A stretch of DNA of 64,000 nucleotides from Bacteroidia bacterium (lineage in GTDB: Bacteria > Bacteroidota > Bacteroidia > B-17B0 > Aurantibacillaceae). Positions within the stretch are counted from its first letter, which is position 1; every line of letters starts with the position of its first letter. Shown piece by piece: positions 35,467-38,249 of the stretch. The DNA is taken from contig JACMNO010000111.1 in the NCBI GenBank assembly GCA_014378485.1, positions 1-64,000 on the forward strand. Direction: 5' to 3'. Below the pieces are notes generated by a model, which was not told the DNA's origin, did not search any database, and worked only from the letters and a program-made list of their open reading frames with translations. A program made the position numbers and the translations under genes.

Positions 35467-38163
35467 TTAACTTAAAACTTCCAACTGCTCTTCCAATGTC
35501 TTTATTTTGGATAAAGCATCACTTTCTTTTTTTCGTTCTATTTCTAGTACTTCAGCTTTTGCATTCGCTACAAATTTTTCGTTTGATAATTTGATTTGCA
35601 CCGATTTTAAAAATCCTTTATTGTATTCAAGCTCTTTAGTCAATCGTTCAATTTCCTCTTCTTTATTCAAATTCATGGCTAACGGAATATAAAACTCCGT
35701 TGTTTTGATCTGAAAAGAAAATGCCCCTTCTACTTTTTCTTTGGTATAAGAAAAGGCAGACAAGTTTGCCAGTTTTATTATAGTATGATCAAAATAAGAG
35801 CTGGTAAAGTCTGATTTTTCAATTACTTCTAATTTCTCTTTTGGAGATAATTTTTTTTGTGCGCGGACGTTACGAACCATCGCAACCAATTCTTTGCTCA
35901 CTTCAAATTCTGCTAATTGTTTTCTATCAATCCAATCATTGATTTTTGGCCATTCCTCAACAATGATACAATCTTTGGCATCACGCTCTTTTATTAAATG
36001 CCAGATTTCTTCTGTAATAAATGGCATCCATGGGTGCATGATCTTTAATAAAGATTCAAGATAACCAATGGTTGCATTGTATGTTGCCTTATCAATTGGT
36101 TGAGCTTTTCCATCAACAAATTCCGGTTTGATGGCTTCAAGGTACCAGGCACAGAAATCGTCCCACACTAATTTGTAAGTTGTCATTAAGGCATCACTCA
36201 TTCGGTATTTCGAATAATGATCATTGATAATTTCTAATTGCTCTGCTAATTTATGTTCGAACCAAGTGATGGCTGCTTTTTGGGCGTCAGTCTGCACCAC
36301 TTCGACTCCGCTCAGTGTGACAGAACCTACTTCAAATCCTGCAATTAAACGAAACGCATTCCACACCTTATTGGAAAAATTTCTTCCCTGCTCGCAATAG
36401 CTTTCATCAAACATTAAATCATTGCCTGCCGGTGAACATAATAACATTCCCACACGAACACCGTCCGCACCATATTTTTCGATCAGGTCGAGTGGGTCAG
36501 GGGAGTTCCCTAAACTCTTACTCATCTTACGTCCCAATTTATCACGTACAATTCCTGTCAGGTAAACGTTAGTGAATGGCTTTTCGCCCATCCACTCATA
36601 ACCGGCAATTGCCATACGGGCTACCCAGAAAAATAAAATTTCAGGGGCAGTAACCAAATCGTTAGTTGGGTAGTAGTATTTCAAATCTTCATTAGCATTG
36701 GCTTTTCCGTTCCTGATAACAGCAGGATCAAAAACCGTAATTGGCCACAACCACGAAGAGAACCAGGTATCCAATACATCTTCATCCTGCTTAACATCGC
36801 TAATATTTAATGATGAGTTTTTAGTTTTTAATAATGTTATCGCTTCCTCTTTGGTTTTACAAATGACTGTATTTCCTTGTCCGTCATACCAGGCAGGGAT
36901 TCGTTGCCCCCACCACAACTGGCGACTGATGCACCAATCATGCACATTTTCCATCCAATGCTTGTAGGTATTAATAAACTTTTCTGGAATCAGTTTGATT
37001 TCACCATTCAACACATTTTCTAAAGCAGGTTTACTCACGTTCTCCATCTTTAAAAACCATTGCATACTTAAACGCGGTTCAATAACTGCATTGGTACGTT
37101 CGCTGTAACCAACCTTGTTTTTAATATCCTCAATTTTTGAAACTAAACCTTGTTCTTCTAAGTCTTTAATGATTTGTTTACGGCAGGCAAAACGATCCAT
37201 ACCAACATATACCCTTGCTGCCTCGCTGATCTTACCTTCCTGCGTTAATACATCAATGGTTTGTAGCTTATGTTTTTGTCCTAAATTAAAGTCATTAATA
37301 TCATGAGCAGGCGTTACTTTTAAAGTTCCCGTTCCGAATTCTTTATCTACGTATTCATCAAAAATAATTGGCACAACACGATTTACAATTGGCACAATTA
37401 CATTCTTTCCTTTTAAATGTGTGTAACGTTCATCAGTGGGATTCACACAAACAGCCGTATCACCCATGATCGTTTCAGGACGTGTGGTAGCAATAACAAT
37501 ATATTGTTCTGATCCCTCTCCTTCGGAGAGGGCTGGGGTGAGGCCGTTCTCAATTTGATATTTAACGTACACTAACTTACTCTGAGCTTCTTTATGAATT
37601 ACTTCTTCATCACTTACAGCTGTTAATCCTTGCGGGTCCCAATTCACCATACGGACACCGCGGTAAATATGTCCTTTATTATAAAGGTCAATAAATACAT
37701 CTATCACCGCTTCGCTCATATCTTCTTCCATGGTAAAGCGTGTTCTGTCCCAATCACAGCTAGCACCAAGCTTTTTTAATTGCTCCAGAATAATTCCACC
37801 GTATTTTTCTTTCCAGCCCCAAGCGTGTTTTAAAAAATCTTCGCGACTTAAATCCGCTTTATTAATTCCTTGTTCTTTTAACAGTGCTACAACTTTCGCT
37901 TCTGTTGCAATACTTGCGTGGTCAGTTCCCGGAACCCAACAGGCATTAAAGCCAAGCATACGGGCACGCCTGATCAATACATCCTGTATGGTATTATTAA
38001 GCATATGACCCATGTGTAACACACCAGTCACATTAGGTGGTGGAATTACGATCGTGTAAGGTGTTCTGTGATCAGGTGTAGATTTAAAGAATTTATTGTC
38101 TAACCAGTACTTGTACCATGTTTGTTCAGCTTGAGCAGAATTAAATGTTTTAGCGATTTCCAT
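35467..38163 (-). CDS. valS: valine--tRNA ligase
   Basis: IVIPPPNVTGVLHMGHMLN (HIGH region), GRKMSKSLGNSPDPLDLI (KMSKS), C-terminal coiled coil; start ATG 38163. Confidence 0.97.
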   Translation of the reverse strand: MEIAKTFNSAQAEQTWYKYWLDNKFFKSTPDHRTPYTIVIPPPNVTGVLHMGHMLNNTIQDVLIRRARMLGFNACWVPGTDHASIATEAKVVALLKEQGINKADLSREDFLKHAWGWKEKYGGIILEQLKKLGASCDWDRTRFTMEEDMSEAVIDVFIDLYNKGHIYRGVRMVNWDPQGLTAVSDEEVIHKEAQSKLVYVKYQIENGLTPALSEGEGSEQYIVIATTRPETIMGDTAVCVNPTDERYTHLKGKNVIVPIVNRVVPIIFDEYVDKEFGTGTLKVTPAHDINDFNLGQKHKLQTIDVLTQEGKISEAARVYVGMDRFACRKQIIKDLEEQGLVSKIEDIKNKVGYSERTNAVIEPRLSMQWFLKMENVSKPALENVLNGEIKLIPEKFINTYKHWMENVHDWCISRQLWWGQRIPAWYDGQGNTVICKTKEEAITLLKTKNSSLNISDVKQDEDVLDTWFSSWLWPITVFDPAVIRNGKANANEDLKYYYPTNDLVTAPEILFFWVARMAIAGYEWMGEKPFTNVYLTGIVRDKLGRKMSKSLGNSPDPLDLIEKYGADGVRVGMLLCSPAGNDLMFDESYCEQGRNFSNKVWNAFRLIAGFEVGSVTLSGVEVVQTDAQKAAITWFEHKLAEQLEIINDHYSKYRMSDALMTTYKLVWDDFCAWYLEAIKPEFVDGKAQPIDKATYNATIGYLESLLKIMHPWMPFITEEIWHLIKERDAKDCIIVEEWPKINDWIDRKQLAEFEVSKELVAMVRNVRAQKKLSPKEKLEVIEKSDFTSSYFDHTIIKLANLSAFSYTKEKVEGAFSFQIKTTEFYIPLAMNLNKEEEIERLTKELEYNKGFLKSVQIKLSNEKFVANAKAEVLEIERKKESDALSKIKTLEEQLEVLS
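36295..36323 (-). repeat. in-frame repeat element inside valS (CTGTCACACTGAGCGGAGTCGAAGTGGTG)
   Basis: Encodes GSVTLSGVEVVQ; resembles a repeat I recall as common in Bacteroidota and other bacterial intergenic regions. Confidence 0.6.
37514..37544 (-). repeat. in-frame palindromic repeat inside valS (GCCTCACCCCAGCCCTCTCCGAAGGAGAGGG)
   Basis: CCCTCTCC-ttc-GGAGAGGG stem plus GCTGGGGTGAGGC arm; encodes GLTPALSEGEG. Confidence 0.7.
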
Positions 38164-38249
38164 GAATGATATTAAAAATTTTGTTAAATTTCGCAAAAAT
38201 AGTGATACCAAACCATATGCATACTATCTTTATGGCACGATATTGGAAT

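Follow-up and report, generated by a model that had tools for sequence, protein, structure and literature searches.

An in-frame palindrome in valS of a Bacteroidia bacterium as the probable solo end of a DUF559 nuclease element

The intrastrand-triplex motifs TM/TMECO combine a stem with a mirrored third strand (GGGGTGAGG), occur in multiple copies and are widespread in bacteria (PMC4666352). For E. coli K-12, Holder et al. (2015) described 23 TM copies, all of them intergenic and most of them short units lacking a nuclease gene, and found no mobility function beside them; TMECO forms a triplex in vitro, and TM sites are prone to rearrangement in E. coli (PMC4666352). Short palindromes that lie in frame in flexible regions of conserved genes are known as Rickettsia palindromic elements and as intragenic REPs of the CGTC and GTAG types, REPs being occasionally intragenic, and the CGTC superfamily is said to have no dedicated transposase (PMC3733652). 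In REPtrons, which comprise a RAYT gene and its REPs, a nuclease or transposase gene is placed between inverted copies of a dispersed palindrome. Inteins place a nuclease in frame within conserved enzymes, as the elements described below do in LeuRS, RecG and MutS. Here, we describe a repeat in valS that shares features with several of these systems and leads to a nuclease family, DUF559.

The 64-kb stretch of DNA that was analyzed (the window) carries valS, encoding valyl-tRNA synthetase (ValRS), on the minus strand at 35467..38211, as an open reading frame of 914 aa starting at TTG and matching 1GAX with an E-value of 3e-185; an alternative ATG at 38163, the same that is used by relatives, yields 898 aa. 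Within this frame, positions 37513..37545 (minus strand) hold 33 nt that encode the peptide GLTPALSEGEG and are composed of CCTCACCCC-AG-CCCTCTCC-GAA-GGAGAGGG. The first-pass annotation had proposed an in-frame palindrome with a perfect 8-bp stem at 37514-37544, and the minus-strand sequence of this segment, GCCTCACCCCAGCCCTCTCCGAAGGAGAGGG, bears this out: the two arms form a hairpin (37514..37532, minus strand) of eight perfect pairs around the 3-nt loop GAA, which folds better than 195 of 200 shuffles (z -2.5). The 31-mer is the sole match in the window at up to three mismatches, and 100 dinucleotide shuffles of the window gave no match to the repeat. The CCTCACCCC tag (37535..37543, minus strand) mirrors the stem arm at seven of eight positions. 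With a GC-rich stem (CCCTCNCC/GGNGAGGG) and a third strand (CCTCACCC) mirrored at 7/8 positions, the repeat is of the string type given in Table 1 of PMC4666352 and is by sequence an intrastrand-triplex motif of the TM/TMECO kind. It differs from the E. coli motifs, which are intergenic and have no reported mobility gene, in having a coding copy and in the link of its family to DUF559.

To compare ValRS proteins, sixty genomes from the genus, the family and the class were searched. The span from WDPQG to TTRPET measures 57 aa here versus 46-47 aa in most congeners, and as removal of the 33 nt restores the length of the relatives exactly, the insertion is a clean one of 11 codons, close to the ten or so residues expected earlier. 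The site is empty in most relatives, and the repeat is confined to its own species among the sampled congeners, in line with the lineage-limited insertion that had been suspected. Thus, as in the Rickettsia palindromic elements, an in-frame palindrome absent from relatives is present, and the proposed analogy of a dispersed palindrome read in frame in an essential protein holds, although the sequence family and the partner differ from those of the Rickettsia elements and the CGTC/GTAG REPs. The insert lies in the CP1 editing domain, in the turn that precedes the strand bearing IATTRPET. ValRS of T. thermophilus (1GAX) shows a gap at this position, and both this protein and the relatives have a short turn there. 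In an AlphaFold model, of which the editing domain alone was used because the model was poor overall (pLDDT 54, shallow alignment), the insert is modelled with low confidence as a loop joining strands 195-205 and 221-226 (898-aa numbering) of the editing domain, which is reliable apart from this loop. The pN/pS of valS against three congeners is 0.06-0.075, indicating strong purifying selection; together with the low-confidence loop this speaks for tolerance only, and the earlier term 'domesticated' is not retained. It is confirmed that a hairpin-forming repeat was inserted into the essential valS gene without breaking its frame.

The same ValRS loop has received at least three independent insertions by the valS-repeat family, one of them inverted, and has also been hit by another palindrome family, whose link is to GIY-YIG genes. 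In a genome of another genus of the same family (G033, locus L059), the repeat family sits at this position in inverted orientation and encodes SPLSFGEGQGGEA, and in a genome from another taxonomic family (G385, L062) the same repeat family, in the orientation of our valS copy, encodes LSLALSKGEG. G016, G001 and G008 carry a different palindrome at the loop (GCTTCGACAGGCTCAGCC in G016). A second in-frame palindrome was found in our valS at 36298..36324 (minus strand), (TCT)GTCACACTGAGCGGAGTCGAAGTG, encoding SVTLSGVEV, and the corresponding loop in relatives is either empty or filled by other palindromes. This second repeat consists of GTCA plus a palindrome, whereas the repeat at 37513-37545 has no CGTC (GTCA) tag. 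By its sequence, the second insert, unlike the first, resembles the CGTC superfamily, and its family is linked to GIY-YIG genes.

Copies were also sought in the rest of the own genome, a metagenome-assembled genome (MAG) of 3.53 Mb and 89% completeness. The expectation of further genomic copies was borne out only in part: the exact 31-mer was not found a second time in this genome and the tag-plus-arm string occurs once, whereas related copies are present and mostly intergenic. Intergenic hairpins were located at C22:104760, C22:110813 and C47:36487, and C62:58355, C62:58435 and C75:40576 carry versions with an altered stem. Within metH, an open frame is enclosed by a further pair of hairpins, C22:165994 and C22:166434, both pointing outward. 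The hairpin pattern yielded 13 matches compared to 5 for the reversed control in a pattern-based census that may miss decayed copies. Since a looser tag pattern (3 mismatches) was barely above its control (12 versus 9), copies were accepted on hairpin and context jointly. The repeat is therefore dispersed and multi-copy, as are TM motifs, with about nine own copies, several of them decayed, and occurrences in 89/247 genomes of the class.

The frame within metH turned out to encode a DUF559 domain (PF04480, E 2e-36). The entire element (G000 C22:165994-166451, L030; 460 nt, CCTCACC...GGTGAGG) contains no stop codon, and the metH reading frame continues through it. Three congeners (G003, G004 and G008) have nothing at this site, G017 carries a DUF559 element there, and other palindromes occupy it in G016, G015, G011, G014, G010, G005, G019 and G002; by these site states metH behaves like valS, with the full element present. 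Between the own genome and G017 the DUF559 domain in MetH shows a pN/pS of 0.33, i.e., moderate constraint, and the two elements are 71% identical with flanks at about 81%, values that give no evidence of recent homing. No target-site duplication was evident at metH, where the flanks are too diverged. In MetH of G041, a decayed peptide resembling the right end (VIPQGEDLGEAR) is left over. A further DUF559 fragment with an internal stop (L031, G000 C22:10029-10163) is probably a decayed element.

A survey with PF04480 gave matches in 124/247 genomes of the class, many in frames of 350-1900 aa, and 90 loci, with long frames preferred, plus 80 from named genomes were sampled, both sets being biased towards embedded cases. 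At these loci, 157 F1 hairpins per 151 kb occurred within 450 bp of DUF559 compared to 27 per 772 kb farther out, an about 30-fold enrichment. As such near and far counts set intergenic or boundary DNA against coding DNA, 33 Y1_Tnp and 30 GIY-YIG loci served as controls; no F1 hairpins were found within 450 bp of the former or near the latter. Three or more hairpins were present in 53/124 genomes with DUF559 versus 6/123 without (Fisher p 5e-13 across 247 genomes, kinship ignored). Several hairpin-rich genomes had no detected DUF559 (G153, G183 and G080, two of these incomplete MAGs), and roughly half of the DUF559 loci were not matched by the F1 patterns, in part because of variant stems in other lineages. 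Where DUF559 stands as a solo gene, the flanks were mutually inverted at 17/36 loci compared to 8/288 mismatched pairs, an arrangement shared with insertion sequences that have terminal inverted repeats. The valS-repeat family is thus tightly linked to DUF559. Solo DUF559 genes also occur as tandem duplicates about 560-580 bp apart (L079/L147 and L150). The nuclease profile matches 3HRL and, at E 1.5e-6, 3R3P, the mobile-intron endonuclease I-Bth0305I; by this homology DUF559 is a PD-(D/E)XK nuclease of the Vsr- and homing-endonuclease-like kind.

In the named-genome sample, DUF559 lay within frames of more than 330 aa at 61 of 80 loci. According to NCBIfam and Pfam, the hosts of embedded domains include MetH and LeuRS (two sites each), IleRS, MetRS, acetyl-CoA synthetase, RecG, RecJ, MutS, TsaD, TsaB, HsdR and IcmF; for HisF, HisD and guanylate kinase, DUF559 is found close to one end of the frame. 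Many embedded domains are palindrome-bounded and in frame, and they occur in cultured isolates, e.g., in LeuRS of Cellulophaga baltica DSM 24729 and RecG of Flavobacterium difficile. LeuRS site A, directly 5' of the TTRPDT codons, is the place homologous to our ValRS insert; many genomes have a full DUF559 element there, and G365 (L063) has a solo palindrome. The MetH and LeuRS sites are shared by many families, and on the DUF559 tree the labels of the sites are clustered (53 changes versus 106 when shuffled); this tree has too few columns to separate homing from descent. A Pfam scan (E 0.01) of seven embedded proteins detected no intein or Hint model. DUF559 elements hence differ from inteins, in that no splicing domain was found and palindromes form the boundaries, and from I-Bth0305I, a homologous nuclease domain also borne by a mobile element, in that this enzyme is encoded by a mobile intron whereas DUF559 elements carry neither an intron nor an intein signature and are read through in frame. 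REPtrons share the arrangement, yet their partner is an HUH tyrosine transposase rather than a PD-(D/E)XK nuclease that is often embedded in host proteins. In the open-access literature that was searched, no prior report of DUF559 with repeats, of such in-frame nuclease insertions or of GIY-YIG with palindromes was found.

Palindromes of other types accompany other enzymes. In relatives, GIY-YIG genes have GTCA-tagged palindromes in inverted flanks (24/64 inverted-flank matches versus 19/512 mismatched pairs). Small GIY-YIG genes with inverted GTCA-tagged palindromes were noted at L218, L222, L225, L226, L348, L349, L355 and L382. Their palindromes resemble the CGTC superfamily and are of the same type as the second valS insert, making GIY-YIG a candidate partner of CGTC-type REPs. 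Some Y1_Tnp genes have palindromes of their own, of the GGGCTTTAGCCC type (L209, L202, L208, L213 and L029).

The association may reach beyond the class. In E. coli K-12, a distance of 167 nt separates TMECO no. 9 (1351204-1351239) from ycjD (1351407-1351760), whose product carries a DUF559 annotation; the PF04480 profile gave no match in the E. coli control genome despite this annotation. The 3' end of ycjD is formed by a decayed TM copy (L341, NC_000913.3 1349800-1352400). This region is present with a coverage of at least 80% in 3362/5426 E. coli genomes, and in strains without ycjD, sapF is adjoined by an MFS gene rather than by a clean empty site. TM-type copies also adjoin DUF559 genes in Synechocystis B12 and Pseudanabaena galeata, as do related GC-rich hairpins in Deinococcus, Sphingomonas and Shinella, while no palindromes were found at several other DUF559 loci of the plasmid collection (Picosynechococcus, Azospirillum, Novosphingobium). 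On P. galeata plasmid pPg_02 (L340), a large annotated CDS encloses DUF559, with several triplex-type palindromes to either side, an arrangement suggesting that the embedded form may extend beyond Bacteroidota.

We consider it likely that the valS insert, palindrome plus triplex tag, is the solo end of a DUF559 mobile element. A complete element would consist of two outward-facing, inverted palindromes around a DUF559 nuclease gene. We infer that DUF559 mobilizes the element or its solo ends: the nuclease may cut or nick at or beside the palindrome, perhaps at an extruded hairpin or triplex, and at the target, and repair would then copy the whole element or a single palindrome into the new site. 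Insertions in essential genes would survive only when free of stops, divisible by three in length and situated in a surface turn, and purifying selection would retain these; the F1 unit of our valS copy is open in three forward and two reverse frames, which should help in-frame survival. As no splicing domain was found, the mature protein presumably retains the inserted peptide or, with a full element, the complete nuclease domain. The strongest competing explanation, which we regard as improbable though deserving weight, is that the ValRS loop, rather than receiving a lone palindrome, once housed a full DUF559 element that was reduced to one palindrome by internal deletion. LeuRS site A, with its full elements and the solo palindrome of G365, and the right-end-like remnant in MetH of G041 are in favor of such a loss. 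However, none of about 127 long-frame cases was a ValRS carrying a full DUF559 element, the solo copies of the own genome, G033 and G385 have perfect stems and no nuclease-gene residue, and the E. coli copies are mostly short and nuclease-free (PMC4666352).

Somewhat less probable still is a spread of the repeat by triplex-induced breakage, template switching or gene conversion with no dedicated enzyme, DUF559 being a passenger or a repair or defence nuclease that acts on such structures. Vsr-type enzymes function in repair, which would fit this explanation. Some TM-rich genomes have no detected DUF559, and the in vitro triplexes and rearrangement-prone sites of E. coli (PMC4666352) would fit it as well. 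The inverted, outward-facing palindromes on either side of the nuclease gene and their local enrichment argue against it, and a passenger repair gene would not give rise to in-frame nuclease elements in unrelated hosts. An ordinary REP moved by a RAYT/Y1 (HUH) transposase, as implied by the first-pass label 'REP-type', might be suspected from the four Y1_Tnp genes of the own genome and from REPs being sometimes intragenic (PMC3733652). This possibility is highly unlikely, as the GTAG tag is absent, none of the 33 Y1_Tnp loci is flanked by an F1 copy within 450 bp, and the palindromes of Y1 genes are distinct; the assignment of the valS repeat to the GTAG REP/RAYT type was therefore rejected. 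The source genome is a MAG, yet the lack of shuffle matches, the dispersed related copies, the independent insertions into the same loop, and equivalent findings in cultured isolates and complete genomes make chance expansion of the loop, or an artefact of assembly, a negligible possibility.

Taken further, the solo-end interpretation would make palindrome-bounded, stop-free DUF559 elements, inserted in frame and unspliced, an undescribed kind of mobile element and the missing mobility system of orphan triplex repeats from Bacteroidota to E. coli (ycjD/TMECO), with a parallel GIY-YIG system for orphan CGTC-tagged palindromes; we see this wider proposal as evenly balanced. DUF559 and GIY-YIG would thereby become candidate nucleases for TM/TMECO (PMC4666352) and CGTC REPs (PMC3733652), respectively, both of which were described without a mobility enzyme, and the pairing of DUF559 with TM is testable in E. 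coli K-12 via ycjD. In-frame nuclease domains in LeuRS, IleRS, MetH, RecG and MutS, in which no splicing domain was found, would represent a selfish-DNA lifestyle within essential genes that is unlike that of inteins and introns.
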